The position numbers and the translations under genes were made by a program. Positions 3,070 through 25,300 of a DNA stretch of 29,191 bases are shown here, piece after piece. Source of the stretch: Polychytrium aggregatum (taxonomy: Eukaryota > Chytridiomycota > Chytridiomycetes > Polychytriales); NCBI RefSeq assembly GCF_025602895.1, contig NW_026516503.1, positions 1-29,191 on the forward strand, read 5' to 3'. How positions within the stretch are numbered: position 1 is the first letter of the stretch; each line of letters begins with the position of its first letter. The notes beneath the pieces are model-generated. The model ran no database searches. It was not told the DNA's origin and worked only from the letters and a program-made list of their open reading frames with translations.

Positions 3070-4570
3070 ATGGGTGTCCCATCCCCACCCACGCAATGGG
3101 CTCTATCGCTCGGCATCAGCTTCATGATCCTTGGTCTTTGCCTCACCGCCGCCAGCCAGATGCTTGCTTTCAAGCTGCATCGACGATTCATTTTCAAAAT
3201 CGTGTGGTTTGACGTTGGCATGCTCATCATTGCCGGGATCTTGGTGATAATCACGATATCGGGGCTTCTAAACTCAAACGACATGAGCCAGTACGAATAT
3301 GTGATTGCGGTTTATGCTGGCCTGGAGAACATATCCATATTTCTGGGAATCATTGGTAAGTTTCGCGCGGATGGGGGCGACCGGGGCGGGCACAGCTGGA
3401 AAGTCTCAGGTGCTACTCGATATTGTGCTTGATGAAGTCGATAAATATGCTGAGGACGCCTTCAGAGGAGCCATGTGCATAACTCCATATCGATTCCTTC
3501 ATCGGATGTTTGGATTGCACATGCCTTGATGTCGTTCCTGGCAAATTGCGGCCCTCACCAACCCGATCACTTGGAGCTGACTTGACCCCATATGCACCAA
3601 AACCTTGCTTCGATCGAACGACAGAATCGACGGACCGGTAGGTGTGATGCTGCATGTCGATCTTGTCGGGAACTACGAACTGCAGCGCCGGCAAGGAAAC
3701 GCGGACATCGATTGAGGGATGGACAATGCCCCGGGGACTGACTTGGCGTTATTTTGGTCAGGTTTTGCGCCTTCGTTCAGAGCAGCAGGAATCGCATGAT
3801 CATCAAGACGGTTGTGTGGGCGATCTTTGCCCTCTCGATGCTCTTCATCATTGGGTCTGGATTCATAGGCATCCTGATCATCTATCCAGGATTCTTTGCC
3901 TTTGCAGCAACGTCATACTATGCCAACGTCTTGAATCCATTTCTGACGTTCTACTGTGAGTTCGCGATGGATCGTGCGCCACAGTCGGCCTCGCTGCCCT
4001 TCCGGTTCCGGACTTGATTCTCGCAGAAACTAAGCCGGACCCATCGCCAGCGCAGATAATGCCTATCTTGTGACAACGTCGTTCATGGACTTTCATTTTC
4101 TGTACAAGCTCGTCCAGGCCATGGGCCTCCAGCTCGACAAGATGCCCGACAGCAAGGAAAAGTACATTGTCCACAAACCACGTCCTCTGGGTCTTGATGT
4201 GCCTGGTCGCCAGCATCGTCGCCTTTTGCGTCAACATTGCGCAGCCGCCACAAACACCTATACGTTCAGCAACCACCTCAACTGCCTTGCGCATTCCTAT
4301 CGTCTTTGCGTCTTTGTTGACTTTGGTATTCAGATCCACGAGCTCTTGGGCAGCGAGTATGTCAAAAGTGCCAGTGCCAACCTGGATGTTGACAAAATCG
4401 CCTCGACCATCCCTAACCCAACCACAACGAACGTCACCAAGACTCGGGCGGCAACGGGAGTATCCGAGCGTGATATGAGAGTCGGGCGCTCTGGTGGACG
4501 CCTTGCCAAGGCTCAACATTTGGCGGGGCAGGGTGGATATCTGCGGAATGAATATAGGGGCTCTATGACG
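3070..4570 (+). CDS. Multi-pass (about seven-helix) membrane protein, unknown family, frames disturbed
   Basis: Exon A (3070-3355, donor GTAAGT) encodes three hydrophobic helices, such as WALSLGISFMILGLCLTAAS and GMLIIAGILVIITISGLL. Exon B (3762-3955) encodes helices including IIKTVVWAIFALSMLFIIGS. Exon C starts at 4056 after CGCAG and joins exon B in phase (Y-N-A-Y-L-V), continuing to DSKEK near 4160. A further helix, HVLWVLMCLVASIVAFCVNI, is encoded next but one frame over, with no room for an intron. From about 4255 the original frame resumes (NTYTFSNHLNCLAHSYRLCV) and runs into a Ser/Thr-rich, cytoplasm-like tail. Exons A and B also differ by one base of phase. So this is either a decayed gene, a gene with single-base assembly errors, or one with an unseen small exon between A and B. 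I do not recognise the family. The helix count and soluble tail resemble orphan seven-helix receptors, but no diagnostic motif is present. The 3' end is approximate. Confidence 0.42.
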
Positions 4571-4788
4571 ACCACAACGGAGGATGTTCTCGTCAATCGA
4601 GGGTCATCGAGAGTGGCGATGCTGAACCGAATCGCAGCCCCGAACCAGCCCATCACATGGTTGTGGCACGCGCTGTGGCTTGGGAATGGCTTCGCTGGCT
4701 TTGCCTCTTGCCCCATATCTTCTCGCCATTCGCCTCACCGCCCCCCTCTTCCCCATCACCAGTCGCCTGTTCTCCCATCTCCTGCAGT

Positions 4789-6417
4789 ATGGCCAACAAC
4801 CCCGTCGATCAGTCCGCCTCGGGTGCTGCTCTTGAGCAGCACGGTGTCGGCTTGCGTCCTGCACCAGACATCTTCACCATTGTGTGTTCCAACGACAGCT
4901 TCCAACTGGCCCTCGACCACACCACAACCAAGACCATGCTCCGAGTGTGCAAGCAGGTCCAGCCACTCCTGAGCTCCAAAGTAGCTGGCTTCCACGACTG
5001 GTGCCAGAAGGCAGGACTGTGCCGTCCGGACGGCCAGTTGATGATCCGCCTCACCATCAGCGACCAGATTGCCCTCTCGCTGCACAGCAAGGGCCAAGAC
5101 ACAGCCGGTATATCATGGGTTGTAGCTCTGGCCGACCAAGGCCATGCCGCTGCCTCGTATCTCCTGGCCTGGGTTCTCCTTCTCGCGTCCATCGTCAAGC
5201 TGCCTTTGCCCGAGGTCGACTTCATTTCCAGACAGAAAGAATGCGCCCGCCATTTGGAAACGGCCGCCAACGCCGGCCATTCCATGGCACAACTCCAGTT
5301 GGCCGACTGCTATTATAATGGCATCGGGGGTCGACCGAGACCGTGCCAAGCCTTTGAAAGCTACCGCAAGCTCGCAACGACGGGATCCACCGGGCCCAAG
5401 TTGCCGTTGTCGATACTATGCAGATGGCGAAGGTATCGATCAGACTTCAACACAGCCATCGAGTGGTATTCCAAGGCTGCCGCCCAAGGAAGCGAAGATG
5501 GCCGGCTTCATGTCGTGTTCCTCCAAGGATGGTTCTCGCTCATCGGCCATGATGGTGTCGAACAGAACGATTCGATGCCTTCAACCGCTGGCTGGAGGTC
5601 AGCAGCAAGTCCACTGACCTCAGCTATCAGGTCCATTGCCACGCACATGGTCGGATGGATGCACTACCTTGGCAGGGGTACCGTGCGAGACGAACAGAAG
5701 GGCGGTCCAAAATGATCCGAGACAGCAAGTCGATTGAGTTCCTTCTCGGAGAAGGGGACGGCCTGACCGGCGGAGGTGACGGAGCGTTATGTCGTTGGCC
5801 ACCCTCGGACTCGGCCATATCACGCAAGTTCTTTGGGCTGTGCCGACTGGGGTCCGACCACGACTGGTTGTGCCAGCAATCTGATGGCGCTGTGCCTGGT
5901 GCATGGATTTGGAACGACGAAGGACCAGGAAAAGGCCGTGGCCATCTTTGAGCAGCTCGCCAACGACGGCCGCAGCAGCAAGCCAGTACTGGGTCGGCAA
6001 ATGCTGGTGGGAGGGCTGGGGAGTGTCGGGAAGCTACTCGACGGCGTTTGAGTGGTTCAGCAAGTCGGCCGAGCAGGGGCAGCTCGTACGGACAGTTCAT
6101 GGCTGGTGTGTGCTACAAGATAGGACTCGGTGTCGATAGGACAATGCTCGTGCTTTTGAGTGGCTTCCGCGAGTCGGCCGAGCAGGGCAATCGATACGGA
6201 CAATACTACCTCGGCAGCTGCTACAACAACGGCAATCGGCATCGACAAGGACACTGACACGGCCGTGTTCTGGTATCGCAAGTCCGCAGACCAAAGCCAC
6301 TACCTCGGCTGTCAACGAGCTCAAGTCATTCGGCTTGTGTGTCCTGGGCCTCGAGCAGGCAATCAGAAGCGCCTTGAAGCTGCGACAAACCCCGCGGAAC
6401 AGCAAATGTATCGATGA
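4789..6417 (+). pseudogene. Sel1-repeat (TPR-like) protein, frameshifted copy A
   Basis: The ATG at 4789 opens a frame with an Asn/Asp leader and a conserved block (DIFTIVCSNDSFQLALDH; LLSSKVAGFHDWCQK), then Sel1 motifs of the type A..WY.KAA.QG: TAIEWYSKAAAQG near 5450, AFEWFSKSAEQG near 6045, ESAEQGNRYGQYYLGSCYNN near 6170 and AVFWYRKSADQ near 6260. Sel1 repeats are alpha-helical protein-interaction solenoids. The reading frame changes at least six times. Examples are a G5 run at 5326-5330 with one base too many, AAGCC near 5350 and CAGACTTC at 5441 each apparently one base short, and further shifts near 5620, 5705 and 5800. No introns explain these. The minus-strand gene at 19425-20996 is a clear paralogue over the full length. 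Either the gene is decaying or the assembly has homopolymer errors here. The 3' end is set by homology to the paralogue's end and is approximate. Confidence 0.75.
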
Positions 6418-6486
6418 AGCGACAAGGGTCGAGAGTGCTGCGTGTTATCCAATCTGTCCATGGCACCCATCACATTCCAATGGATC

Positions 6487-6552
6487 CGAATACATCTGAA
6501 TACATCTGAATACATCTGAATACATCTGAATACATCTGAGTACATCTGAATA
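6487..6552. repeat. 10-bp tandem repeat (GAATACATCT)n
   Basis: Six to seven contiguous copies of GAATACATCT with minor variation, located just downstream of the Sel1 copy A. Contiguous copies without spacers rule out a CRISPR-like arrangement. Confidence 0.9.
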
Positions 6553-7372
6553 TATCCAGCATATCCCAGTGTGAATGACTGCGCTGTCCCACAACAATCC
6601 AGGACAACTTTTTACCCTGTTGGCGTGAGGGTGCATTGCTGCTGATCAAGTCTTTCAATCTTCCGAGTCCGGTCTGTATCGATAGCTCAATCGCGCCGGC
6701 TTCTCCGGTTGGCCCCCTTCCCACCCGGCATGCGCCAACGACTTGCCATCCTGGATTGATCCATTGATTGCTTCAAGGCATCCGCCTAGCTTTGCCTCGT
6801 GCAACCCGTCCACCGCCGTCTCAGTCGTCGCCGTGGCTGCCTCTCATTCGCCCATTCACCCAACAACTCCAGGGCCGTTGTGCGATGGACCAACGCCCTG
6901 TGATCGGCTCGGTTGGTTTTTGTTTGTGGCGGCGCTGGGGCTGAGCGGCCCACTTACTGGATGCTTGCTTTGGCTGCTTGCTTTGGATGCATCGTCCGTT
7001 GGGTGGCCGGGCTATCTGTCCCCCCCCCCCGCTTTGCCATTTTTTCCGAGCTGCTCCTATGGTTTCGTTTCGACTTGGGCGGCGGCTCGGTTCCGGCATG
7101 CCCACACAACGACACCTCCAACAGCGCTCCATCGCAACATCCACGCGATTCCCCCGAGGTGATGTTTGCGCATGGCCTCCTTGCGGCAGAGCTTTTCCGT
7201 CAACCCATCCATCAATCCGTCAACCCATCCATCAATCTACCGATTCGCACCAGACAGCACCGCCCCCAGCAGAATCAGTCTGTGTCCGCCCGGCACCGGC
7301 TCCCGCCATCGCTTTCGCTGCACCCGTTCTTGTTGTCATGAACATGGCGCCACAAGCCGGCCCTGGAACGGC

Positions 7373-7378
7373 TATATA
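7373..7378 (+). promoter_or_regulatory. TATA-like box upstream of the transporter
   Basis: TATATA lies in a GC-rich setting (ACGGCTATATATGTCC) 213 bp upstream of the transporter start codon. The spacing implies a 5' UTR of roughly 180 nt. Sequence resemblance only. Confidence 0.4.
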
Positions 7379-7551
7379 TGTCCCTCGGCTGTTCCCACCC
7401 ATTCGCTCTCACCTCCAGCCCAGCTCCGCGACAGCAGCCCGACGGCCATCTTGGCAGCGAGTTCGTCTTCTTACTCTTTCACCTCATCCATCGTGCTCGT
7501 TTTGTCGGACCTTTCCCTGTCCGCTTGATCCCGGCCCATCTCGAGTCCACT

Positions 7552-7589
7552 GCCTCTACTTCCTCTACTGCCTCTACTGCCTCTACTGC
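7552..7589. repeat. CCTCTACTG tandem repeat abutting the transporter start codon
   Basis: Four copies of a 9-10 bp CCTCTACTG unit end two bases before the ATG at 7591, so they belong to the 5' leader. Confidence 0.8.
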
Positions 7590-7590
7590 A

Positions 7591-10030
7591 ATGGAAGCCG
7601 CGACTCCAGCCCACCCCGACAAGCTCGTTCACTCCGAGTCGGCCGACACCACTGTCGAGCTCGACAACCAGAACGACTATATCGACCGGGACGAGGATAT
7701 TTCCAGCTACTCCTTGGAGGAGCGCCATCTCTTTCTGAAGCTGACCCGATATCTTGTCCCGTGGATGTTCGTCATGTACTTTTTTCTGCTACATTGATCG
7801 CGCAAATCTGTGTAAGTGCTGCTGGTTCTCGCGGCAGGACGATTGGTGGATGGGAGGATTAGCTTTGCTTGATCGCTGTCGTTGCCAGAAGCGGATCGCG
7901 CAGCTTTCGGCAGCGATCAAATCCGCTGCTTGCTGGCGGATCGTGCTCTGATCATGGTCTCCCCATCTCCTCCTCGGCATAGCGAGCGCGCTGGTAATGA
8001 ACAAGGAGACCGGTCACTCCCTCAAACAGATGGTCCTCTCCGACCAGGATGTCTCGATCGGTCTCGGACTCTTTTACCTGGGTATGTTATCCCGCATCTG
8101 TGAGCATGGGGGCATATGGTCTGAGGAAACAGGCCGGGTGCTGTCATGATGACGGCGGCCGAGGTTTCGATTGGCATACCGGCTGTCCGAAGCCGCTGGC
8201 GGGTGCTGGGGTGATCTTTCTCTGTGGCTCACTCTCCCACCGCACATCCAACCAACCGCACATCCAACCGCACACAGGCTACGTCATCTTTGAGATCCCC
8301 TCGAACTGGGTCCTCACCAAGGTCCGCCCCAGTCTCTGGTTCGCGCGGATCATGGTCAGCTGGGGCATTGTCCTTGGCTGCTTTGCCCTGATCTCCAAGA
8401 GTTGGCACTTTTTCCTCCTGCGGTTTCTGCTTGGGGCCACTGAAGCTGGGTAGGTGTACCTGCAGCGACGCAATGCGATGGCCGCCAATGCCTCTGCTGC
8501 ATCGTGGCGACTGCATCCGAGTCTAACTGCTGGCCCTCGCAGTCTCTTCCCTGGCATGTCATACTACATGACCCTCTGGTTCAAGCGGCGCGAGACGTCC
8601 ACCGCCTATTCGGGCTGGTACATTGGCCTCCCGCTCGCCGGAATGGTCTCGGGCATCCTGGGCGCCGTGATCGGCAATATGGATGGGATCGGCAATCTGC
8701 GCGGATGGCAGTGGAACTTTCTTCTGCCGGCTATCCCGACCATTCTCATCGGCATTGCTGCGTACTTTATCTTGGTGAGTTTTCGCAGTCGCTAGCTTGT
8801 TGCGATATATCGAGCGAGCAGCCTAGACTTGATAGGTGGCCTGTTCGTTATCAAGCACATCGACTACTGTCTTTGGTTTGGCATTCACTGGCGGGTGGGT
8901 GCTGTTTGACGGCAGCCTCGGAGAAGGTCGCATGGACCGCTCGGAACGATGCAGACCCACACTCGGATCTTGTTTGGCTGACGCTTCGCTCTCGTTTACC
9001 AGCCCGACGAGCCCAGTCCAACATCAAGCAGCCTGCGCTACCGATTTTTGTCGACGGAGGAGCACAAGATGGCCGAGTCCCGGATGGCTACCCGCAAGGC
9101 CCAGCTGCTGTCGGCGACCCACAATGCGCACAGTCTCAGGACGCTGTGGAGATCGATCTCGGATTGGAAGGTGAGCCCTCAGCTCGATTCCTGACAGATC
9201 TGTTGCCAGTCTCGCCGGGCCAGCATGGCAAGGAACATGATTGTCTGATATGTCGATGGTGGTTCACTCGGCAGGTGATTTTCTTTGCGATTGTCTATCT
9301 CCCTGGGCTCGTCGCATCGACAAGCCTGGCGTACTACCTGCCTCTGTTTGTCAGCGGCCTCGGCTTCAGCTCTGTGTTAAGCCAGATCATGGCAGCGGCC
9401 GGCTGGATCTACGCTGCCATCCACATGGTCATCGCCGGTCGCATATCCGACAAGTTTGGTAGCCGCAGTCTACCCCTGGTCGTGAACATGATCCTGGCCA
9501 GCATTGGCTTTCTCGGAATGGGGCTTGGCGGCAATCTGTGGGTTCTGCGCTATGTGGCAGCATTCCTGGCCCTTGGCGGCACCAAGAGCGTCACGGCGAT
9601 CTGCATGCCGGTAAGCACCGACATCTTGATGTGCACGTCAAAAGGCCGATGGCCGCTGTCTTGAGAGACGTTGCAAACCTGCTCTCAGCAGGTTCCGACC
9701 GAGTGGCCTCGACTGACTCTCTCCATGTTCCTCCCATGTTCTCTCGCGACTCAGTGGACAAGCAACAATTTTGTCGCCCAGTTCGCTCCCGGTGCGATCG
9801 CAGCAGTCACCACGCTGGGCAACATCGGCAACATCGTGACGAGCTTTACGATCTTTTCGGCCTGGGCAGCCGATGCACAGAGGAACTATGAGTATTCGTG
9901 TGTGGTCGTCGCAGGGCTGATGTGGCTCTCTATCCTATCGACGGTATTCTTGCGTGTGTTCTTTATCCGCGAGAACGGCAAGCCCAAGGGAGCCAAGACA
10001 GCCGAAGCGGTCGAGCGATACATTATATGA
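7591..10030 (+). CDS. MFS transporter, anion:cation symporter (Dal5/Tna1-like) family, one frameshift in exon 1
   Basis: Seven exons join in phase: 7591-7811, 7983-8081, 8278-8449, 8543-8774, 9003-9170, 9275-9610 and 9755-10030. After correcting one base they give 500 aa, the normal length for this family. Family marks are a long acidic N-terminal tail, YIDRANL after helix 1, VIFEIPSNWVLTKVRP (about 109-124), RFLLGATEAG (155-164) followed by LFPGMSYYMTLWFKRRE, a charged central loop (FLSTEEHKMAESRM), and the repeat loop GRISDKFGSR (352-361). These fit the allantoate/nicotinate/biotin-type ACS symporters, plasma-membrane carriers of organic anions, vitamins or small peptides; the substrate cannot be read off. 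The T run at 7780-7785 has six T where five would keep VMYFFCYIDRANL in frame; as written, translation stops at 7795. The gene is co-oriented with the Pls-like gene 1.8 kb downstream, so it may move a precursor or product, but that is inference. Confidence 0.88.
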
Positions 10031-11471: not shown

Positions 11472-11601
11472 GGTGCGGGCGCTGCTGTGCCATGGGCACA
11501 CTCCGCTGTTCGTTCCGTCCGTGTCGACGCTCTCCCGGTTGTCCCGCCGCTCCGACGTCCACCACCCTCGCTCCTGCCCACCAACGGCCTCCTCCTCGAG
11601 C

Positions 11602-11607
11602 TATAAA
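11602..11607 (+). promoter_or_regulatory. TATA box of the Pls-like gene
   Basis: TATAAA in the context CGAGCTATAAATCGG lies 187 bp upstream of the ATG at 11794. The intervening sequence is pyrimidine-rich, as is usual for a fungal 5' leader. Confidence 0.5.
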
Positions 11608-11793
11608 TCGGTTCCTCCCCGAAGACCACCATGTCATCCCGTCCCTCGCCGAAGCTGCCAGTCTCCAGCAGCATTGCCATTTTCCCGTCCACGCTCTGGC
11701 TTCCGGCATCCCCTCGCTTCTTTACACCCCCATCGACGTTCCCACGGCTCTGTCCCCGTCGACCCTTGCTCCACCCTTCCCTCACTAGAGAGA

Positions 11794-14700
11794 ATGCTCT
11801 CAAAAAAGACCCTCGAGGCCGTCTCGGCCGTCACCGAGGACCTCAAGCGCCACGACTATGCCGCCTTCATCACCGTCGGCTTTGTCGCCGTCCTGGCCCG
11901 GTACTCCGACTCCATCGAGAACTACGACCTGCACTTCAGAATCGACAGCCGCCTCGCGAGCGCGCCCGTTGGCTCCAAGTGCACCGTCAATGTCACTCAG
12001 TCCTTCAGTCATATCCACCGCATGATTCTCGGCGTCCTGTTCACCAGCCATCCCTTGGACGAGAATGAAAGCTGCAAGATCACCGTCGCCTGGTCCGAGA
12101 CCGGCGACTTCCAGTCCAGGTTTGTGTCGCTCACCTTCTCCTCTGGAGACTTTGGATCAGGTATGTGGCCGTATTTATAACAGGCTTGTCGCTGGTGCCT
12201 TCCCACTATCTACCATCAATCCCACGCCACTGCTTGCCCCCCGTTACCACCGCCTACCACGACTATCCGTCCCACACATCCTCCGGGCTGTACAACGCCA
12301 CAAATGCATTCCTGACGCACTCGTCGCCCTTGTCTGTCGCCTCATGTCGAATCTGCATCTCCTTCATCGACTGACCGGCTGCACTATCATCCTCTGTTCC
12401 TTCCAGGTTCCTCCGACTTTGTCGAGGAGATGATTGGTCTCGACTGTCAAATGGCTGGCTTTGCCGGCCTCTCCCCCGCCGAGATGGCGCTGGTCAACAT
12501 CGAGGGCTCCGTCACGGCCTTCCTCGAGTCGCTGGCACAGCACCCCAACTTCCGCAAGATGCCCCTCGACAGCTTCAACGTCATCTGCCCCGAGGACTAC
12601 CAGCGTCTGCTCGTTCTCAGCAACGCCAACAACCTCTCTCCTCAGCCGCCTCGCAAGAGCGACCAGTACCTGGCCAACATCTTTGTCCGCACCGTCCAGA
12701 AGCACCCGCGCATGCTGGCCCTGATCCACGAGACAAAGTCCATCACCTACGAGAAACTCTTCCATCTGTCCAAGCTGATCGCCCAGCATCTCATCGAAAA
12801 GTGCGGCGTTCAGGCCAACGACCGCGTCGCCCTGATGTTCCCAAAGTCCATCGAGGGCTTTGCCATCATGCTCGGTGTGATCCTCGCCGGCGCTGCCTAT
12901 GTCCCCATCGACAACGAAAAGACCCCGCCCGAGCGTGCCGCCTACATCATCATGGACTCGGCCTCCAAGGTCTCTGTCATCGTCGACGACGCCCTCTGCG
13001 ACAAGGTCTCGGCCGAACTCGACAAGCTCGGCGTCTCCGGCAGCACCATCCTCCTGACCGTGCCGGTTCTGTACTCTGCCGCCCGCGATCTCTTCATCTC
13101 CTCTGGCTCACAGAGCATCTCCATCACCATCGACGACCTCCCTGTCGACCGCAAGCCCTCCGATGGTGCCTACATCATCTACACCAGTGGAACGACGGGC
13201 AAGCCCAAGGGCGTGCTCATCAGCCAGGGCGCCATCGCCAACCTGGTGGTGGTCGAGCGCGATCTCTTCCAGCTGTCGCCCGGCGATCGTGTCTTCCAGA
13301 ACTTTTCCCACAGCTTTGACTTTTCGATCGAGGAGATCTGGATGGCGTACTCGACAGGCGCCTCGCTGGTCATCCCGACCAAGGACATGATCTACGCCGG
13401 CCCCGATCTGCCCAAGCACATCCAAAAGTACAGCGTCACCGTGTTCTGCTGCGTCCCGAGCCAACTCGGCATCCTCGTCGGCGAGATGCCCTCGGTCAAG
13501 ATGATTGTGCTGGGCGGCGAGGCTGCCCAAGAAAATATTGTGCAGCGCTACCGAATGAGGGGCCGCAAGATCTTCAACACCTGTAAGTGCTGTTGTTGTG
13601 TGGAGTGGTGTGTGGAATGGTGCGGTGAACCTGGGGGCAACCAGAGTCCCGGTGAGACAGACGATGCTCGATCTTCCACACATTCATCACATACTCATCA
13701 CACACTCATCACACACTCATCACACACTCACCACACTTATCCCACTTGCGCTGCCCCAGACGGCCCCACCGAGACCACCTGCAGCTCCACCTACCTCGAC
13801 ATCTCCGAGCCTGTTGAGAAGATGACCATCGGCCGGCCCTTCATCAACTACACGTCGTACGTCGTCGACTCCAAGAACCGCCTGGTTCCCATCGGCGCCA
13901 TGGGCGAGCTCGTCATCGGAGGCAAGAGTGTCGCCGAGGGCTACATCAACAGGTGCGTCCGACTACTCGCCCCACGAACTGCTCTCGATTCTGCCCCTCG
14001 GCTCGCTGCTGCTTCCGTGGCGCTGACGCTGCATTCTCTCCCCATACAGAGACGACCTCACTGCCGAAAAGTTCATCCACAACCCCTTCGATCCCAGCGG
14101 ACGCATGTACAAGACCAGCGATCTCGTCAGGTATGCTGTCGGTCTCGATCGTGTGCACCATCATTGCTCCAGCAAATGTGCCTGTCCCACTTGGCCCTGT
14201 CGAGGGTGGTACGCCTTGGCCATGACCGACACATCGCTATGAGCTCCGTGTCTCATCGACATGCCATGATGTGTGCTCTGGTCCACAGATACACTCCCGA
14301 GGGCAACATCGAGTACTTTGGCCGCATCGACTGCCAGGTCAAGATCCGCGGCTTCCGCGTCGAGGTGAGCATCGCACGCTGTCCTGTCCATCCTGCCCGC
14401 ACTGCTCGTCGATGATCGTCGATGATCGAGCCATGCCCATGCCGCGGTTGGCATGTCGATCCATCAACTTTGCATCACGGCACCGCACTCTGCGATTTCA
14501 TCTTACTGACCCACTCTGGGGTTTCTCTCCCCTCGCTCCCCCCAGCTCGGTGAGATCGAGTCCAATCTCTCGGATTGTGACGGAATCCAGAGCGCCATCG
14601 CTCACGTCTGGACCGCCCCGAACCCAGACACCGGCAGCACCGAGCAGACCCTCGTTGCCTATCTGGTGCTCGAGACCTGGTGCCACGAGATCGACGACCG

Positions 14701-14879
14701 CAAGATCCGCGAGAAGCTCCGTGCCACTCTGCCGCCGTACATGATCCCCTCGGTCTTCCAGCGCATGCTCCCAGAGGACGTGCCGCGCCTGACCAGCGGC
14801 AAGATTGACCGCAAGAAGCTGCCTCCCATCATTGCTCCCGTGAGCACCGATAGAGGCATTGGTTCCGGCTCTGGCGCTG

Positions 14880-14910
<31 letters not shown>

Positions 14911-17900
14911 CTCCAGCCCGACCGCCGCTTCTGGCTCCGAGAAGCCTCGCCCCAAAAAGTCAGTCGATGGCCCAGAGCCCATGAATGGCTCGATGGAGGA
15001 TGTCATCACTGCCGTCTGGAAGGACCTGCTGGGCAGCGATCGTATCGCCAAGACCGACAACTTTTTCCACGACCTTGGCGGACGTAAGTGCCCCACTCGG
15101 CTCGCTGTGACCGCCTTGCAATCATGTATGAGCGACGAGCAGAGTCTAATCATGGATCTCGTTCTACTCCCCAGACTCGTTCCTTGCGGCCAAGACCATC
15201 GGTGCCCTGCGCAAGCATCCTCGACTGGCCGGACTCAGCGTCCGCGACCTCTACGAGAACCCCACCATCGCCCAACTCGCCACTCTGGCCGCCCCCGCCC
15301 AGGCCGAGAACCGCACCGAGGAGCGCAAGAGCAGGCGCTTCAGCAGCATCAAGCGCACCGCCAAGGTCCACCGCCCTTCGCTTCCGGCCAAGGCATTCTG
15401 CGGCCTGATTCAAGCGTCGTTCTTGTATCTCTCGACCTTCTTCGGTGGCCTTCCTCTCTACCTGGGCATGTTCTATCTCTACAACTTCCAAACTACTATG
15501 GAGCTCTGGACTTGGCACTATGTGCTGATCACAGCCATTCTCTTCCTCCTCGTCACCTCGGTGGGTCGCATCTTTGCGATCATGTTTGTGGTTGTCCTCA
15601 AATGGCTCCTCCTCGGCCAGATGCGCGAGCGTTCCGTCCCCGTATACTCCTTCTTCTATCTCCGATGGTGGATCGTCAAGACACTTTCTGGTAGCCTTGG
15701 TCTGACGGATCTTCAAGGCTCGTTCCTGCTCCCGTTCATCCTTCGTCTGCTGGGATGCAAGATTGGCCGTGACTGCAACATCTTCAGCATTAGCGTTGAT
15801 GGATTTGATCTGATCGAGATTGGCCACGGATCCACCATCGGCAACAATGCCACGATCATCGCTTACGAGTTTGCCAACGGATACGTGCACTTTAAGAAAA
15901 TCAAGATTGGTGAGTGTCGCTGATGGAGGTTGTCAGTAGTGTGGTTGTTCTTGCCGTTGTTGGATCTTTCAGCCGCACTCGGCCTGGGCGATGAAAGTGG
16001 TCTGCCAATGAGTCTGTGTTGGAGTCATCCCCGCATACGACCCAAACTATCACACTGACATCACTGCTCTCCCGTCTCAGGCGAAAACTGTGTCGTCGGA
16101 GCCAGCTCCGTTGTCGAGGCCGGCGGAATCATGAACGACGGCTCCGAGCTCATGGATTCGTCGCTCCTGTCGTGCAATGACGTTCTCGAGGCCAACCACT
16201 ACTGGGGCGGCTGCCCCGGCCGCGACCGCGGCAAGAAGCAGCCCTCCGCCAAAGCCCGCTCGCTCTCCGACGGCAACTTCATCTATGTCTTCACCTACTC
16301 GATCTTGATGATCCTCGCGTGGTTTATGGCCCAGGTTTTCAAGGGCCTCACCTTCTACCCCGGCTTTACTCTGTACCTGTACGCCAGCTCGGTGTTTGGA
16401 ACCAAGAACCTGATCTGGGCCTTTGCCCCTGCTGCGGCTCTGGTGTAAGTCGACAACGGCGATGCAGGTTTCTACTTTGGTCTGCAGCTGGTGTGAACCA
16501 GCGGCTGGCCCAGCATGCCACGTACATTCAAGCATGCGTTTCCATCACCGACATTGTCGCTGACTCTGTTTCCTCTGGACTTCCAGCAACATTCTGTTCT
16601 CGCTCTTCCTGGCCATCGTTCTCAAGTGGATCCTCCTCGGAAAGGTCAAGGCCGAGCGTATCCCGGTGGTGTCGTTCACCTACATCAAATACTATCTCTT
16701 TGATGCCTTTGTGAGTAGCTTGCATCGCCGTCGAGGATTCGGACTGCATCAGAAGGCTTGCTGTGTCCAGTGTCTTGTCTGCGATGCGATGCGATGCGAT
16801 GCGATGCGATGCGATGCGATGCGATGCGATGCGATGCGATGCGATGCGATGCGATGCGATGCGATGCGATGCGATGCGATGCGATGCGATGCGATGGGAC
16901 TTGCTCACATTCCTCTTGTCGATGGCCACTTTCTTCAAACGTAGTACCATGATATGCTGACCTCCTTCAAGACCGTCTTCAACACCCAGTATGTGGTTCC
17001 CTGGCTCCGCATGATGGGCTGCCGCTTGGGCAAGTTTTCCGAAGTGGCATTCTTCAGCCCGTTCCCTGGCGAGCTGCTGACGGTACGTTGTCCTTGACAT
17101 GCAATCTTCTGCCACTCCGAGCCTGTCTGGCCATGCTCAGGACACTCACTGTGCGCTCTGATGATTGTAGACCGGACAAGGATCCTTCATTGCCGATGCC
17201 GCCGTGATTGCTCCGCCCTACGTCTCGAACGGCTGGTACAGCACCGGACCCGTGCACATTGGCGACAAGAGCTTCGTTGGCAATGCGGCTGTTGCTCCCG
17301 CATACACACACATTGCCAGCGACTCGCTTCTGGGTATGTTTGTGGAAAGAATGGACAGACGCATGCTGCACACTCCTGCTCGCTTTCGAGGCAAACGACA
17401 TGATACTGCGTCGTATGGCTGCGTATCCTCTAGTCCTGCCTCGAAGCCTTCCTCGTGGCTCGTCGCTCTCGTACGGTGCAGCTCCGTGACTGACAAAACC
17501 CCACCTGCATTGATCCGTGGCTCCAGGCGTCGCCTCCCTGCCGCCGAGATGCCCTCGTAACCCTGAGGCTGGCGGATACTGCATCAATCAAGGCGAGACC
17601 TGGCTGGGCAACGAGGCTGTCCGTATCCCCTTCCGCAACAAGGACGGCAACGACCGCTTTGGCGATTCGTCGACCTACCAACCCTCATTTGCGATGAGAC
17701 TGCATCGCTACATCTGGGGTGAGTGACAGTCTCAGTGCTGTATGATGATGATGAGTGTGTGTCGGTCTCGGTGGAGAACGTACTCGAGGCAGTGAGAGTT
17801 ACTGCTTGCTGACTGGATCCTCCACGTATCCTGCAGAGGCCTTCCGTATCCTCGTTCCCTCTGCGATCTCGGCCGCCTTTGTTCTCTTCCAGCTTGAGTA

Positions 17901-18672
17901 CTTTGCGCAAGGTTTCCTTGACAACTACCTGGACCATGTCCAGAAGATGGTTTTGTTCCCTGCCCTCGTCTGCTTGCTCGGTGTCTTTGAGCTCTTGCTG
18001 CTGATCGTGCTCAAGTGGATCTTGATTGGCCGCTACAAGAAGACGGAGCAGCCCATGTACTCGACCTTTGTCCGCCGCACCGAGTTCCTCACGGGCATGC
18101 AGGAGCAGAATGTTGCGCCCTTCCTCGGGGCACTCATAGGTGAGTGCAGCAGACCGCACGACTTGCATGCTTGATGTGCAGGCGGGGTTCAGAGGCAGGC
18201 GGGCGATGCGGTGGCCATGGCGCATCTTGGTGGCTTGAACTGCATGGATGTCAATGTCGGCCTGTTTCATTTGCTGACCTGTTGGTGATATACTCGGTTC
18301 CATCACGCAGGCACACCCTTCATGTCGATCGTCTTCCGCATGCTCGGCGCCCGGGTCGGCAAGAATGTCTTCTGGGCCACCGTTGACTTGACCGAGCACG
18401 ACCTGCTGACGATTGGCGACAACTGCACCGTCGGCTCCTATGCAGTCTTCCAGACACATCTGTTCGAGGACCGCGTGATGAAGCTCGGCCCGATCGAGAT
18501 CGGCAAGAACTGCAACATCCGCACCCGCACGATCGTGCTCTACGACGTGGCCATCGGCAACGAAGTCGACGTCAACCCGCTCTCGCTCGTGGTCAAGGGC
18601 GAGAGTCTCCCCGACAAGACCACCTGGGAAGGCCTGCCGGTCCGCCACACCGACCGCCGTCTCCTATGCTAG
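11794..18672 (+). CDS. Pls-like NRPS: (partial C)-A-T-three membrane/hexapeptide units (epsilon-poly-lysine synthetase type)
   Basis: Fourteen exons join in phase to 1603 aa: 11794-12160, 12407-13582, 13760-13952, 14050-14130, 14289-14364, 14546-15083, 15175-15909, 16081-16444, 16587-16710, 16945-17082, 17171-17333, 17527-17718, 17837-18139, 18311-18672. Residues 1-190 look like the C-terminal part of a condensation-type fold (VLARYSDS; a PEDYQRLL linker before A) and lack any HHxxxDG. The adenylation domain has A3 YIIYTSGTTGKPKG (378-391), A5 YGPTE (515-519), A8 YFGRIDCQVKIRGFRVE and A10 SGKIDRKKL with Lys717. The carrier motif is DNFFHDLGGHS with Ser812 (phosphopantetheine site). From about 885 come six helices in three pairs, each pair ending LKW(I/L)L(L/I)G (952, 1189, 1441) and followed by a soluble domain with hexapeptide-like turns. 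Streptomyces epsilon-poly-L-lysine synthetase has this A-T-6TM/3-soluble-domain plan and polymerises lysine iteratively at the membrane; a related Epichloe enzyme is known. The product here is inferred, not shown. No frame breaks. Confidence 0.93.
13676..13742. repeat. CATCACACACT tandem repeat inside a Pls-like intron
   Basis: Four or five copies of an 11-12 bp CATCACACACT unit occupy the middle of intron 2 (13583-13759), just upstream of its acceptor. Confidence 0.8.
14855..14921 (+). repeat. Coding GGCTCT hexanucleotide repeat (Gly-Ser linker)
   Basis: Repeated GGCTCT units encode an alternating Gly-Ser linker (about residues 735-757) between the adenylation and carrier domains of the Pls-like protein. 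The uniform codon pair suggests expansion by slippage; length changes in units of six keep the frame. Confidence 0.9.
16781..16896. repeat. (GCGAT)n pentanucleotide microsatellite, about 23 copies
   Basis: A perfect run of GCGAT over about 116 bp lies in intron 9 (16711-16944) of the Pls-like gene. The flanking exons join cleanly across it, so it is noncoding despite open MRCDA-type frames in every phase. Confidence 0.97.
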
Positions 18673-19424
18673 AAGGCTTTGGCCACACCATTATCTACAC
18701 TATTCCAATCGTTCACCCCCTCCCGTGAAAGATTTATAGACACCCATCGCGTGTAGTGCTCTGTTGTGCCAACTCTCCGTTATCAAGATACTCCTTGGTC
18801 GTCACACACACCATCATTATCATCATTATCATCACAATCCTCATTATCATCATTATCATCATTATCATCATTATCATCATTATCATCATTATCATCACAA
18901 TCCTCATTATCACAATTATCACCACCATCATTATGATCATCTCCGATAACGATCAGCCCAAAGTTCCCATTGTATCCAATCTTGCATTTTCCACCATATT
19001 TCGCATCCACATTCATGATTGCATTCGTCTATCTATCTCACTTCTTCATTTTACAATCTCTTCAAACATTTTTAGCCCCTCGTTCGGTCATTTGTTGGCT
19101 ATTTTGCGAAGGTGGGTGTTGACCATCCCAAGCAACGAGGGCACAGCCCATTTGCATGTTTCTCTCACAATGGCTCTTGGCTTACAGCCCGGGCTACTCG
19201 CTAAATCTTGAATATAGCAGTGGAATGATAGCTCGTTGCTTGCATTCTCTGGTAAAATGTGGTCAAGGAGGATCTGGATGGTGCTGAGTCCTTCCACAAT
19301 CTACTATTGTGAAGCTGGAATCGACGGACGAAAGTTGCATATGCCATTGTTGCTTCACGGAGTCATTCGATGTTTCTCTCGATCAGTCAAGATCAGCGAG
19401 TGTTTCGAGACAGCATTGCTGTGA
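18673..19424. other. Intergenic, 3' region between Pls-like gene and Sel1 copy B
   Basis: Holds the 3' UTRs of two convergent genes. It is AT-rich compared with the rest of the window and contains the ATC/ATT microsatellite. No gene is supported. Confidence 0.6.
18811..18932. repeat. (ATCATT)n / (ATC)n microsatellite
   Basis: About 120 bp of ATCATT units with occasional ATCACAATCC interruptions, 140 bp downstream of the Pls-like stop codon. It is open in several frames (Ile-, His/Tyr- or Asp/Asn-rich) only because of its composition. Confidence 0.95.
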
Positions 19425-20996
19425 TCAGTTGCCGAGATTCTTGAGGAGACGGATGGAACCTACGTGACCCTGGTTGGCGGACTTGCGGTACCAGAAGATG
19501 GCGGCGTTGATGGTCCTCGGGGACACCACTGCCACCGTGGTAACAGAAGCTGAGCCACCATTGTCCGATCCGATTGCCCTGCTCGGCAGATTTGCGATGC
19601 CACTCCACTGCCTTGGTGTGGTCCTCAGTGGTTCCGTATCCATGCTAGCCTGAACACCAACCAACCATCCACTGCCCATATAAGTTGCCTAGGTCGGCCG
19701 ACTTGCTGAACCACTCGAATGCCTTCTCGCATTCCTCTGATACTCCAAAGCCACTCAAGTAGCACACTCCGATCCAAAACTGACTGTCACTGTGGCCTTC
19801 GTTGGCGAGCTGCTCGAAGATGGCCGCTGCCATCGTACGGTCCACGGTAGTTCCAAATCCAAAGTACACACACACAGCGATGAGATGCTCGCACAACCAG
19901 TCACGGTCCGATCCCAGCTGGCACAACTGGAAGAACTTGCGGGCGACAAGCGAGTGTGATGTGGCAGCCCAGTGGGAGGATGCCAGACACTCGGCTTCCC
20001 CAAGCGGGAATGCATTTGATCGATTATCGCGAATGATCTTGACACCTTTCTGCATGTCCTGGACAGTGCCGCGGCCAAGGTAGTGCATCCAGCCAACCAT
20101 GTGGGTGGCGATGGGCTTGATGACTGGATCGTCGGATTGGGTGCTGACTTCCTGCCAGCGGTGGAACCATCGACATCGCTCTATTCGACACCATGGACGA
20201 TGAACGAGAGCCAGCCACGGAGAAACACGATATGGAGTCGACCACCTTCGTTGCCCTGGTCGGCAGCCTTTGAGTACCACTCGATGGCTGTGTAATAATC
20301 TTGTTCGACACCTTCGCCATTCTCATAGCAGCATCAGAGAGCCGCTTGTGCCTGAGGGAGTTCAAGCTCTGTAAGCTCATGGTACAGCTCGAAGGCCGTG
20401 GTGTGGTCATGATCGATTCCAATTTTGTTGAGATAACACTAGGCCAGGTGGAACTGAGCCATTGCGTGGTTTGTGTTGGCCGATGTTTCCAGATGGCGGA
20501 AGATTCGCTGACGAATGGCTCGCTGCTCGTACCATTTCATTCCTCCTTGGTCGAGATCGACTTGGAGGATCCTTGAGAGGAAGTATGAAGCATAGGTGTT
20601 TCCTTGGTCCGCCTGAGCGACGAGCCAGGATCGGTCGGCTGAGCTTGGATTCGCGCAGTGCGGCGATAGGGCAATCTTGTCGCAGGGCGCAAGCCCGAAC
20701 CAAAGGGACCCATCTGGATTGCACAGCTCTTCCTTCTGGCACCAGGTGTTGAATCGAGGCAGCTTGGAGCTCAGGAGAGGACGGGCTCGCTTGCACACTC
20801 GAAGGAGGGTCTTGATGGTGTTGTGATCGAGGGCAAGTTGGAAGCTGTCGTTGCAGCAGATGATGGTGAAGATGTCTGGGTTGTGTTCGAGTGAGAGCTG
20901 GTTGATATTGGGCATTGACGAGGTCGATCTGGCCACAGCTTGGGTTTGGTGGGTGGCAGATGCTGTAGTTGAAGCAGGCTCGTTCATGCTGGCCAT
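19425..20996 (-). pseudogene. Sel1-repeat (TPR-like) protein, decayed copy B
   Basis: The likely start is the ATG at 20996 (MASMNEPAS). The conserved block DIFTIICCNDSFQLALDHNT and SSKLPRFNTWCQKEELC aligns with copy A at 4789-6417, and both share the segment ATHMVGWMHYLGRGTV. Sel1 units include YYTAIEWYSKAADQGNEG (about 20280), IFEQLANEGHSDSQFWIGVC (about 19790), AFEWFSKSADLGNLYGQW, AVEWHRKSAEQGNRIGQWWL and IFWYRKSANQG near the end. The frame is broken by a TAG after MAQFHLA (20439), a TGA just before CCYENGEG (about 20330), a frame change near 20190, a TAG before HGYGTTEDHTKAVEW (about 19645) and another frame change near 19520. In-frame stops plus frame changes make decay more likely than assembly error alone. 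Copies A and B lie in opposite orientation on either side of the transporter and Pls-like gene. The original function is unknown beyond protein interaction. Confidence 0.75.
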
Positions 20997-21279
20997 GTTG
21001 ACGGAGACTGGATGGAGACAAGTGGTGACGGAGCTGGACAGGAGACAGTGAGGGAATTTGTGTCGAAGCAAACCAAACACTGGCCATCGAACACACACAC
21101 ACAAACCTGGCTCGATCCGATGGTTTGCTGGCTGGACTCGCTGTTGTATAAGTACTGCCACATACACTGCCACAGATATTGAACATGGAATCAGATTCTC
21201 CATTCTCGTCGTCCAAGGCCAGACGCACCTCACTATAGGCGATCCAATCTTTGTCCATTCTTGACCCCTCGGTTACACT

Positions 21280-21745
21280 CATCCCCTCGACATCAAGGCG
21301 CCTACGACACTGTCTGGAGGGAGAAGTTCTGGGACAAGATTGAAGAGCGCACCCCGTGCACGGTCACCCTCAGGCTCTTGAAGGCCATGTTCGACGATGT
21401 GAAGATTCAAGTCGTCAGCAAGAGTCGTCGGTCCAATCCGGTCTGGCTGCAGAAGGGACTGATCCAAGGATCGGTGCAGATCCCACTCATGTTCAGCGTG
21501 TTCATCGACGACCTCCCTGGGAAACTCCGGGCAGACGGTGGAACGACCCTAACCACCACCCGAGGACGACCCGTCCAGGTCAACTCGCTGTGGTTTGCCG
21601 ACGATGGGGTGCTCATCTGCCGCCCCAACCAGACCCAGCGCCTCCTCGACATCTGCGAGGCCCGCAGCATCGAGAACCGATACCAGTTCTCGCCCCCGAA
21701 GTGCGAGATGATGTTCACCGAACAGCACCCGTGGATTGGGATCCT
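21280..21745 (+). mobile_element. LINE-type reverse transcriptase fragment
   Basis: One open frame encodes the middle of a non-LTR retrotransposon reverse transcriptase: HQGAYDTVWREKFWDKI (finger/palm motif near the first catalytic Asp), KGLIQGSVQIPLMFSVFIDD (normally QGsplSPlLF..fiddL), LWFADDGVLIC (the YADD catalytic motif as FADD) and a following C-rich KCEMMF. Endonuclease, upstream RT motifs, the connection domain and a poly(A) tail are absent, so this is a dead internal fragment. It lies just upstream of Sel1 copy B and 0.6 kb from the 3' end of the A-T-R gene. Confidence 0.82.
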
Positions 21746-21829
21746 GTCGCCAGATGATGGATACCCTGGCTGCCAATGGACGACAAAGGAATCAATCCTT
21801 GATCAAGCAACAGGAGAGACATGAGAACG

Positions 21830-22319
21830 GGCACTCCCACTCATCTCTGTCGCTCTCCCTCTCGGCCTGCATTGTGTCCTTGCTTCTCTCCTGATCGTTC
21901 ACTCACTCGTGTCTGTGCGCCGTCCGTGACGACCTGTGGCGATCACTTTCCAAATCGTCTGGGAAGATGACAGTCACTGGAATGGATAGGTGTGCCCGAA
22001 CCACAGATGCGACAACCATCATCCGAGGATCGAGTCCCATCGTCGATATGACCACAATGGGCTGCAGAAGGCAATACCAGTGCGGTCCGGGAAGTTCGCT
22101 GTCCTGTCACGGTCAGTCTCACCATATCAATCGTGTTCACATCACAAGACTTAGACAGGACTTGACCAAAGACCAACATCATGGAAGCGAAGGGAGCGGA
22201 TCAATCGAGTGATCCGCCGTTTATAGATGAAAAGAAAGAAAATGAAAGAAGAGACTCAAGCAGAAAGGAAGAGGAAAGAAACGACCTGATCAATCTATTG
22301 CTGAATCACCGTCCGCTGA
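21830..22319. other. Intergenic stretch without a supported gene
   Basis: Sequence between the RT fragment and the A-T-R stop codon. A purine-rich tract (GAAAGAAAATGAAAGAAG) occurs near 22230. No coding signal is seen on either strand. Confidence 0.5.
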
Positions 22320-25300
22320 TCAGTTGCGGCCGGTGCGGGTGAAGATGCTGACTTCGGGATACTCGTCGTCCTTCAGCTCGCTCGACGGCTGGATGGGGTT
22401 GGGAAGGAAGTGGGCGTGGTTCAAGTAGCTGAGACACTTCTTGGCGATCAGTACAGTCGAGGGACAGGGTGTTGGGTAGATCGAGCGGGTGTTGGCGTTG
22501 TCGAGCTTGAAGGACATGTCCATCATCATGTGCATGAGCGGGGACAGGGCATTTTGGTCAAACAAGGGGTTGGTGGAAAGAATGTACTTGAACTTTTCAC
22601 GAGTTTCAAAGAGGACGGGCCAGCCAAAGGAGTTGACGATCTCGAACAGCTTGGTCTCGGAGAGGACACTGCGGTGAGTGAGTGAGTGAGTGAGTGAGTG
22701 AGTGAGTGAGTGAGTGAGTGAGTGAGTGAGTGAGTGAGTGAGTAATCAGAGTCAGAATACACCATCCACACCACACCACATCGCACTTCACACCACATCA
22801 CACACTCCTCACCTGTGCTCCGAGTCGCTGATGTGGAACACAAACTTAGACAGGGACTCCTCCGAGCCGGCAATCTCGGCAACCACCTTGGCGACATGGT
22901 CGACGGGATCCATGGTCAGGGTGACGGGAGTGGCATACGACGGAGCAACACCAAGTTGGATGCATCCCTTGACATATCGCCAGATGTAGTCATCAGAGTT
23001 GGACACTGGAGCAATGGAGGGTGTGAAGGTGTCAGTTGGTGTCAGTTGGTGGATGAGTGCCACTTGACAATCGAGACCATCGATTCATGGCCAGTCCGTG
23101 GGAATGAATGAGACATCTCCACCACATCACATCTCCACCACACCACACCACATTCGACTCACCTCCGTACTGGCTGTCGCCGGCAATGACGGCCGGGCGG
23201 ATGATCGTCACCGGCACTCCCCTCGATCGTGCCTTGTTGATCAGCTGCTCAGAGACCCACTTGGTCTGGCCATACCCGCCAGAGATGTTCCAGGCCGAGT
23301 AGATCTTCTCCTCGAGCGGCTTGTCTGCCTTCTTGGCCATCGGGATCGTGCCGATGGTCGAGATGTAGTGCAGCGGCTTCAGGTGGTGGGTTGTGGCCAG
23401 TCTCAGGGCCGTCGCCGTGCCGAGGACATTGGGTCCCTTGAGTCTGTCATAGTCAAACAGCCAGTGGACCTCGGCGCCGTTGTGGACAATCATGTCGGTC
23501 TCCTCGCTGATCTCCTTCCATCGCTCGTCCGAGAGTCCCCACTTGTCCTGCGACAGGTTGCCGCACAGTCCAACGAGTCGAGACTTGAGGCTGTGCTCAA
23601 GAAAGGCTCTCTGGTCCGGATCGAGGACCAACTTCTGAGCCGTGCTGATGATGCGCTCGACAGCCTCCTGATCGTCCTTGGCTCGGACCAGGCAGTAGAT
23701 CTTGGCCCGAGGGAACTTGTGGGCCAGCTCAAAGACCAGGAAGGCACCAAGGAAGCCAGTGGCACCGGTCAGGACGATGCCGCGAGGGTCCTTGGGATAG
23801 ACAAACGGAGGAAGACCCTCGGTCGTCACACTCGCATCGTCGAGCTTGGCGGCCTCGGCAGCCAGATGGACGGTCGGGGGAATCATCGGTTTGTCGTCGA
23901 GGATGTCGACGACCAACTGGGCGACATCGAGCGGCGTCATTCCGTTCGACAGCAAGATCATCGGTGAGATCTCAACATCCAGCTCGTCCTTGATGGCGAG
24001 AGCCAGACGGCCGACACTCAGCGAGTCAAAGCCGACACCGCCGATGTAGTAGTTGCGGCCGTCGAGGGCGGGGTTGTCGATGATCTGGCTGCCAAGTGTG
24101 GAGATCTTGGCGGCAGTGCGGGACAGGGGAGTGTTGACGATGTCAAGGGTTGGATAGATAACCGACTCGCCAAAGTACTTGGCATGCTCGGCGAAACGCC
24201 TGAGCTTCTTGAGGTCGCGCTTGCCCGAGTCATTGAAGGGGAACTGGTAAAGTTCGAAGACGTTGTGGATCGGGAACTTGGCGACGTTCTCGAGGGTAAA
24301 TAGCTCCTCGGTGCGGCGGATCATCTCGCTGGGGGTTACTTTGAAGCCCGATCCCTTTCGAACGACGTAGAGCATCACGATCTCCTTCTCGGAGGTTTGG
24401 ACAAAGGTGCAGTCTTTGATGGTATCAGGCATGTGCTTGTAAACCAGCTCCTCGAGGGCGTTGAGGTCGACATAGACGCCGTTGACCTTGATCTTCTGGT
24501 CGAATCTGGAGTGATGGTGTGGAGCGAGGGAGTGAGGGAATGGATGACGTGAGTACTCGGGATGCAGGAGTTGGATGTGTCCCCAGGATGTCAGATGTGC
24601 AGTCGCCATCAACGAGAGATGCAACGCCCGGCCGTCGACCTCACCTTCCAACCACAGTGAACTGCTTCTCGTCAACCATCTCGACCCAGTCCATGGTGCA
24701 GACACGGGGCGAGCCATCCTCGAGGAAGCCAAATGTAGCAAGCTTGTTGTTCGGATCGATGTTGGCAAAGCTCGGGTGGTGCTTTGCAAGATGATCCTTG
24801 TCGACGGCAAAGCCAAGCACGCCGCTCTTCGAGACCTTCTGGTCGACGATATTCCCCTCTTCGTCAAAGAGGATACAGCGCACACCGGGCTTCGCAAGTT
24901 TGTAAACCACTTTGTCTGGAACGAGTCCGTTACTGGCTGGCAAGAAGAACACCGAGACAGCACCAATCGTTCCCAACTGTCGGTAAAGCCGTGGTCAATG
25001 ACAATCCAGGGTGACTAGCTGACAAGATGTTTATGTTAATCCTACCTCACTTGCTCCATATATAATCTGAATATCGGCCTTTGGACAAACGTCTCTGGCC
25101 ATTTTGACAACGTTTGCAGGAACAAGCTCGGAGCCCATAACGATTTTTCTCATCTCATTCCACTTGACTTTCGGGTTCTGAGTTCGAGCCACGCTGATGA
25201 TCATCTTCATGAATGAGGGCGTCTGGGAAGAGTGTATCAAAGAGGAATAATCCATCAGCACTGGGATGAAGGGCGGTTTGTCATCAATGCATATTCCCTA

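Follow-up and report, generated by a model that had tools for sequence, protein, structure and literature searches.

The closest described systems are the synthetases of cationic homopoly-amino acids that make up the Pls/PosA family: Pls of Streptomyces and the already characterised Epls of Epichloe, for epsilon-poly-L-lysine (PMC7179176); PosA of Acinetobacter baumannii, for delta-poly-L-ornithine (PMC10522769); a synthetase of beta-poly-diaminopropionate (PDAP; PMC4668381); and synthetases of gamma-poly-diaminobutyrate (PDAB), described together with their dat gene (PMC8117764). Gene-cluster annotation labels the enzyme class NAPAA (PMC10989895). The subject here is a gene for an enzyme of this kind, the sort that builds an antimicrobial polymer out of a single amino acid, in an early-diverging fungus, Polychytrium aggregatum (Chytridiomycota, Polychytriales). 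The window, that is, the whole stretch of DNA analysed, comprises 29,191 nucleotides (contig NW_026516503.1 of assembly GCF_025602895.1), and the gene occupies positions 11794-18672. An earlier reading of the letters alone (the original prediction) had rightly placed it in an early-diverging fungus and had called its architecture little described outside actinobacteria and a few ascomycetes; that overstates its rarity, for PMC10522769 records relatives in several fungal genera and in many phyla of bacteria, and also in Amoebozoa, Alveolata and Metazoa.

Its domain content marks the gene product as a single-module, membrane-bound synthetase of the Pls/PosA family. With slightly more confidence than doubt, we read it as a synthetase for a short diamino acid, diaminopropionate or diaminobutyrate being the most likely monomers. 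Our literature search turned up no paper on a chytrid Pls-type enzyme, and the word "chytrid" does not occur in the main text of PMC10522769 (its supplements lay outside the search); a short-diamino-acid polymer from a eukaryote is unreported in the literature cited here.

The gene and its domains

The gene and its parts are laid out as follows.

11794-18672, plus strand: Pls-type gene, 14 exons, 1603 amino acids
11794-12160, 12407-13582, 13760-13952, 14050-14130 and 14289-14364, plus strand: exons 1-5
14546-15083, 15175-15909, 16081-16444, 16587-16710 and 16945-17082, plus strand: exons 6-10
17171-17333, 17527-17718, 17837-18139 and 18311-18672, plus strand: exons 11-14
11794-12654, plus strand: N-terminal extension, residues 1-205 (exon 1 and the start of exon 2)
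12655-14830, plus strand: adenylation domain, residues 206-726, with introns 2-5 inside it (PF00501, TIGR01733)
14978-15293, plus strand: carrier (T) domain, residues 776-850 (PF00550)
15381-18669, plus strand: putative terminal polymerisation domain, residues 880-1603 (TIGR02353, hydropathy)

Rebuilt from the sequence, the coding region is 4812 nucleotides long and free of internal stops, and all 13 introns are of the GT-AG type; the 14 exons, 13 introns and intact frame that had been predicted are recovered exactly. Family membership follows from the position and score of TIGR02353, the NCBIfam model of the Pls/PosA terminal domain, which scores 473.5 bits against a curated cut-off of 423.1 (residues 907-1594) and comes after an adenylation and a carrier domain. 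The profile search thus puts the C-terminal half in this family and in no unrelated one, which bears out the original claim of a complete Pls-family synthetase. The adenylation model TIGR01733 scores 381.9 bits (cut-off 317.4), and a Pfam scan finds AMP-binding (residues 216-576), AMP-binding_C, PP-binding (784-847) and hexapeptide repeats (E = 5e-8). The expected carrier serine is Ser812 (15177-15179, adjoining intron 6), and serine stands at this position in 119 of 119 aligned rows. The HHxxxDG motif is absent from the protein and Pfam matches neither a condensation nor a thioesterase domain, all in keeping with the earlier domain account, which needs amending in one respect: 205 residues stand before the adenylation domain.

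Hydropathy marks hydrophobic stretches at approximately residues 919-961, 1120-1148 plus 1165-1199, and 1381-1405 plus 1414-1450. Of the six helices in three pairs originally proposed, the three pairs fit this pattern, while the six single helices are not separable in it; residues 263-292 and 1474-1497 likewise exceed the threshold. Probably the terminal domain comprises three pairs of helices, along with three soluble units of the hexapeptide type. Solved structures, compared by sequence, match only its hexapeptide-type stretches, apart from one match at chance level.

The protein was aligned to 172 relatives, of which 61 are prokaryotic loci with titles (one of them archaeal) and 111 are hits of the protein search, after setting aside 19 of 80 loci that lacked a clean motif-bearing frame and seven of 118 protein hits of at most 1150 amino acids. 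Of the columns conserved in at least 95% of these relatives, the window protein keeps 62 of 65 in the adenylation domain, 8 of 10 in the carrier domain and 56 of 66 in the terminal domain.

How would such an enzyme operate? The adenylation domain, to judge from its family and from D427, E431, T514 and S523, would activate one diamino acid with ATP, and the monomer would be loaded on the phosphopantetheine arm of Ser812; the terminal domain, if it behaves as in other family members, would then join monomers iteratively through the side-chain amine and hand the cationic chain on to a membrane or through it.

The substrate pocket and the choice of monomer

Pocket positions were taken in the PosA-structure numbering of PMC10522769, by way of the alignment to the 172 relatives.

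13318-13785, plus strand: pocket span
D427 (13318), F428 (13321), E431 (13330), C470 (13447) and V490 (13507), plus strand: pocket residues
G492 (13513), T514 (13579), C522 (13780) and S523 (13783), with K717 (14801), plus strand: pocket residues

The resulting code, DFECVGTCSK, is identical in all four Pls-type loci of the genome and occurs in none of the 172 relatives. The acidic pair suited to a diamino acid (D427 and E431) is kept; the PosA residues that touch substrate are D217, E221, T304 and S313 (PMC10522769). Position 2 of the code is Phe in PDAP and PDAB synthetases, Met in PosA and Ala in the lysine-polymerising Pls, according to the same source. Among the relatives, 85 have Ala there, 52 Met, 29 Phe, five Leu and one Ile, and 14 of the 29 Phe-type relatives begin, like the chytrid code, with DFEC. 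What favours a short monomer is Phe428, which takes up pocket space at a position occupied by Ala in lysine enzymes. The epsilon-poly-lysine label of the original prediction is accordingly not supported by the residues: the pocket is of the Phe type, which is ascribed to diaminopropionate and diaminobutyrate synthetases.

Trees of the terminal domain, from which the pocket residues are excluded, agree. In a tree of 104 rows the chytrid loci are sister to the Phe-type rows (support of 82 in the Shimodaira-Hasegawa-like approximate likelihood ratio test, SH-aLRT); the same grouping has support of 94/91 with 42 rows and 97/95 with 48. (A technical note: the 104-row tree draws on 39 of the 111 protein hits, namely all 21 Phe rows and every fifth of the others; the 42-row tree is a random Phe/Ala/Met draw that omits Leu and Ile rows as well as five rows that were long or odd, and that has two of the four chytrid loci; the 48-row tree adds to this set six rows that bear an N-terminal extension, of which more below.) The monomers would rank with diaminopropionate and diaminobutyrate first, ornithine second and lysine third.

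A number of observations weigh against a short diamino acid, or against an intact enzyme. Cys522, at position 8 of the code, is found in none of the 172 relatives; Ser523, at position 9, is shared with 25 Met-type rows and with no Phe row, Thr standing there in 28 of the 29. The chytrid stem in the terminal-domain trees is long, 1.8-2.0 changes per site with 104 and with 42 rows, so that the chytrid's place may be pulled. In the adenylation-domain tree, which included the pocket columns, the chytrid is placed inside the Pls family, which separates from 12 canonical domains of nonribosomal peptide synthetases (NRPSs) with support of 100/100, and there sits at an unresolved fork: a clade of chytrid and Phe rows is neither shown nor rejected, the tree constrained to it being 2.3 log units better with a p value of 0.62 in the approximately unbiased test. 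The 30 best adenylation-domain BLAST matches are 29 Ala-type rows and one Met-type row, and the best Phe row ranks 31st (342 bits against 371 for the first). The SbnB family has no match at E 0.001 in the 64.7-Mb assembly of 418 contigs, in a search that was positive in 8 of 14 control genomes, which counts against diaminopropionate by the known route. Finally, ten of the conserved terminal-domain positions differ in the window protein, and Ser602 may weaken this particular copy:

14117-14119, plus strand: Ser602 in the adenylation stretch YKTSDL, which we take to be motif A7

Glycine, present in loci 2 and 4, stands at position 602 in 170 of 176 rows; serine is confined to the window copy and locus 3.

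Pocket residue and terminal domain thus favour one answer, the overall similarity of the adenylation domain a different one; the phylogeny of the two domains, which had been suggested as a check, gives a terminal domain beside the Phe-type clade and an adenylation domain whose closest allies within the Pls family the tree leaves unsettled. (Searching protein databases with the adenylation domain alone brings up mainly multi-domain NRPSs, because scores add up across domains; in single-domain BLAST, Pls members lead NRPSs by 371 to 322 bits at best.) Other supply genes say little: SbnA, EctB and Dat have matches in the genome below cut-off only, and in this search, made exon by exon, even the Pls gene fails to reach its own cut-off.

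Could the monomer be ornithine, polymerised by a PosA-like enzyme with a shifted pocket? Ser523 corresponds to Ser313 of PosA, Thr514 is kept, the failure to find SbnB would no longer matter, and ornithine is a common fungal metabolite. Most fungal relatives, moreover, are placed in the ornithine branch by PMC10522769. With Phe rather than Met at position 428, and a terminal domain that keeps company with the Phe-type rows and not the Met clade, we nevertheless regard this alternative as quite unlikely. An epsilon-poly-L-lysine synthetase like those of Streptomyces and Epichloe would have the same domain order, and lysine requires no dedicated supply gene; the adenylation BLAST ranking, with its 29 Ala-type rows in 30 where 85 in 172 is the overall share, argues in the same direction. 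Lysine as first-choice substrate was rejected all the same on the pocket and the terminal-domain trees, and as an alternative it is decidedly unlikely: the position that sets substrate length (PMC10522769) is Phe428 and not Ala, the terminal domain groups with Phe-type rows, and the protein of locus 2 (P0001) has identities of 31-35% with the 18 rows in alignment A1 that are prokaryotic or unnamed, to be compared with 51% between Epls and Streptomyces Pls (PMC7179176). A synthetase for diaminopropionate or diaminobutyrate remains the reading that we prefer.

Four loci and probable gene conversion

The whole-genome search finds four Pls-type loci, each present on two contigs.

Locus 1 (the window): contigs C226 and C90
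Locus 2: contigs C335 and C369
Locus 3: contigs C382 and C35
Locus 4: contigs C356 and C367

The window, which is contig C226, aligns almost end to end with C90:793459-822525 (positions 19670-21999 lay outside the comparison), so that C226 is a redundant or second-haplotype contig. When the exon structure of the window gene is projected on the seven further copies, none contains an internal stop, and for this reason the gene structure is beyond chance. The GT-AG boundaries are kept, locus 4 lacking intron 13; at locus 3 the last codons differ from those of the window, and the projection covers its frame short of the end. The projection at locus 2 reproduces the deposited P. aggregatum model (P0001) letter for letter; the deposited model at locus 4 starts within the adenylation domain. 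The top protein match is P. aggregatum BJ171DRAFT_585221, at 97% identity across the terminal half.

The four loci differ from one another very unevenly along their length. Compared with the window, locus 2 has an identity of 98.1-98.6% over 11561-18773, the repeat array of intron 9 excepted. For locus 3 the figure is 97.4-98.8% over 12457-18643, yet only about 68% in exon 1. For locus 4 the DNA identity is 96.6-96.7% over 12457-14853, that is, the adenylation domain with introns 2-5 included, and about 70-91% in the remaining aligned pieces.

12457-14853, plus strand: stretch homogenised among loci, by DNA identity (extending to 18643 in locus 3)
16780-16894: pentamer array (tgcga)n of 115 bases in intron 9

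Introns 2-6 of locus 1 match their counterparts in locus 4 at 94-99% identity, introns 1 and 7-12 at only 37-58%. Introns that are more similar than exons elsewhere in the same gene suggest gene conversion, and the identities point to adenylation domains homogenised among the loci in this way, with terminal domains that have diverged. (Intron 9 measures 234 nucleotides in locus 1, 139 in locus 2 and 204 in locus 3.) The terminal domains of the old paralogs at loci 1 and 4 are under purifying selection, as the ratio of nonsynonymous to synonymous change (dN/dS) of 0.24 attests (dN 0.227, dS 0.964), and the selection surmised by the original prediction from the intact frame is in this sense borne out.

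These comparisons bear on a further alternative, that polymerisation has been lost, leaving single aminoacyl transfer, or that the window copy is losing function while loci 2 and 4 are active. Ser602 and the ten altered terminal positions could be so explained, and between young copies the third terminal unit has a dN/dS of 0.79-0.97, a value based on few changes and, for locus 3, partly on its differing end. On the other side stand the absence of internal stops from eight of eight copies over about 4.8 kb, the dN/dS of 0.24 between old copies, and the retention of the carrier serine and of the acidic pocket pair. Loss of function is, on balance, highly improbable, and an active synthetase for a short diamino acid is to be preferred.

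The N-terminal extension

Residues 1-205 have no Pfam match, and a protein search with them returned the protein itself as the sole match among 1547 candidates. Nine of the 172 relatives are also extended N-terminally, by about 140-280 amino acids, and all nine have Ala-type pockets: P0014, P0020, P0057, P0060, P0066, P0112 and the Hymenobacter loci L062, L065 and L103 (the lengths for these last three are upper bounds, their frames having been read from the preceding stop). Compared with the C-terminal half of NRPS condensation domains, the extension of the nine scores 72.7 (E 2.5e-9; 150 of 218 collected segments), the maximum in 40 column shuffles being 18.5; without the linker columns the score is 40.9 (E 5.4e-5). 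These profiles give good support to the view that the nine relatives retain, as their extension, the C-terminal half of a former condensation domain.

The chytrid extension is a weaker case. In profile comparison it is collinear with that of the nine relatives at a probability of 5.5%, E 0.007 and a score of 23.7; shuffles reach at most 20.2 in 100 trials, and the reversed sequence and 20 other windows at most 18.5. Cut to residues 1-155, the extension drops to 17.1, and directly against condensation domains it matches in the linker only (score 19.2, E 0.09). A half-condensation relic in the chytrid is thus suggested and no more. A single clade of the chytrid and the nine extended relatives was rejected in a constrained tree; the test is a weak one, since the nine do not themselves form one clade. 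The comparisons as a whole hint that part of the Pls family descends from an ordinary condensation-adenylation-carrier module minus half its condensation domain.

Combining these strands, one can picture a chytrid-specific branch of synthetases making a polymer of diaminopropionate or diaminobutyrate, in which four isoforms would share one adenylation domain kept alike by conversion and would differ in polymerising domain and half-condensation relic, so that several chain lengths could arise from one monomer. So complete a picture is, in all its parts together, unlikely.

Origin of the gene

The original prediction had offered two origins, an old eukaryotic lineage or a transfer old enough to have gained 13 introns. 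The evidence leans to the second, an old acquisition from bacteria followed by intron gain: the chytrid has a long stem and is surrounded by bacterial rows, and in the best 120 of 1525 hits (from 8000 scored candidates) the first two are P. aggregatum and the other 118 are 30-36% identical, four of them carrying organism names, all bacterial. With only these best 120 listed, lower-scoring fungal relatives may exist. The Epichloe gene is probably a separate acquisition.

Vertical inheritance within an old eukaryotic lineage, without bacterial transfer, must be set beside this. It would fit the 13 introns, the long stem and the presence of further, similarly laid-out loci in the same genome. It would also fit the relatives recorded in Amoebozoa, Metazoa and Alveolata, and the broad group in which PMC10522769 places non-fungal eukaryotes together with diaminopropionate and diaminobutyrate enzymes, beside which the chytrid protein falls. 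Against it, no other eukaryote is named in the best 120 hits, and the terminal domain falls among bacterial rows, in a tree whose only eukaryotic members are the chytrid loci. We keep vertical descent as a somewhat unlikely rival to bacterial acquisition.

Neighbouring and distant loci

Around the gene, the window contains the following.

4558-6293 and 19645-20322: Sel1-repeat frames
8444-9661, plus strand: piece of a major-facilitator transporter, upstream of the gene (PF07690, 31.7 bits, below the cut-off of 33.4)
21183-21821, plus strand: reverse-transcriptase-domain fragment (PF00078), probably from a retroelement
23032-25014, minus strand: gene for a thioester reductase (PF07993, TIGR01746) that also matches a carrier domain weakly, some 4.4 kb downstream of the Pls-type gene

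With each contig of a pair counted separately, the assembly has more than 20 further occurrences of the thioester-reductase region; on each of the two contigs of Pls locus 3, one of them is found some 24 kb away from that locus. The Sel1 frame at 4558-6293 is one of a family, with more than 30 places like it in the assembly, and region 5275-9500 has one other copy, 92% identical, on C375.

Elsewhere in the genome, five more paired loci (L016-L025, on C107/C112, C79/C94, C387/C386, C113/C383 and C102/C124) have a terminal part that resembles TIGR02353 below cut-off, with 192 bits over one 833-residue frame of L024; in the frames of L016, L018 and L024 this terminal part follows an acyl-activating part and a carrier motif. 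They would constitute a second, more distant family of similar layout.

Comparison with known systems

If the enzyme is active, a zoosporic fungus possesses a cationic homopolymer synthetase whose pocket code none of the 172 relatives shares; to our knowledge, few such polymer products are known from these fungi. The pocket yields a testable prediction of substrate, and the four paralogs, nearly alike in adenylation domain and in two cases different in terminal half or N-terminus, should be useful for questions of chain-length control.

How does the chytrid gene stand to the characterised enzymes? With Epichloe Epls it shares the adenylation-carrier-terminal order, TIGR02353 and the lack of a functional condensation or thioesterase domain; it differs in having Phe428 instead of Ala, a 205-residue extension and 13 introns, and it is far less prokaryote-like, by the identities already given. 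With PosA it has in common the substrate-contacting Asp, Glu, Thr and Ser (PMC10522769), and differs in Phe instead of Met at position 2 and in the clade of its terminal domain. The nine extended relatives resemble it in their extension, to which its own is weakly collinear, and differ in their Ala-type pockets. Then there are the PDAP and PDAB synthetases, whose Phe at position 2 it shares, as it shares the DFEC start with about half of the Phe-type rows that are its sisters by terminal domain; Cys522, Ser523, the extension and the failure to find SbnB set it apart, and the link to these enzymes is by way of the Phe residue as reported in PMC10522769, the tree containing no characterised PDAP or PDAB sequence. 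What is new is a chytrid branch of the family, with its own pocket code, its 205-residue extension and its four-locus pattern of conversion.

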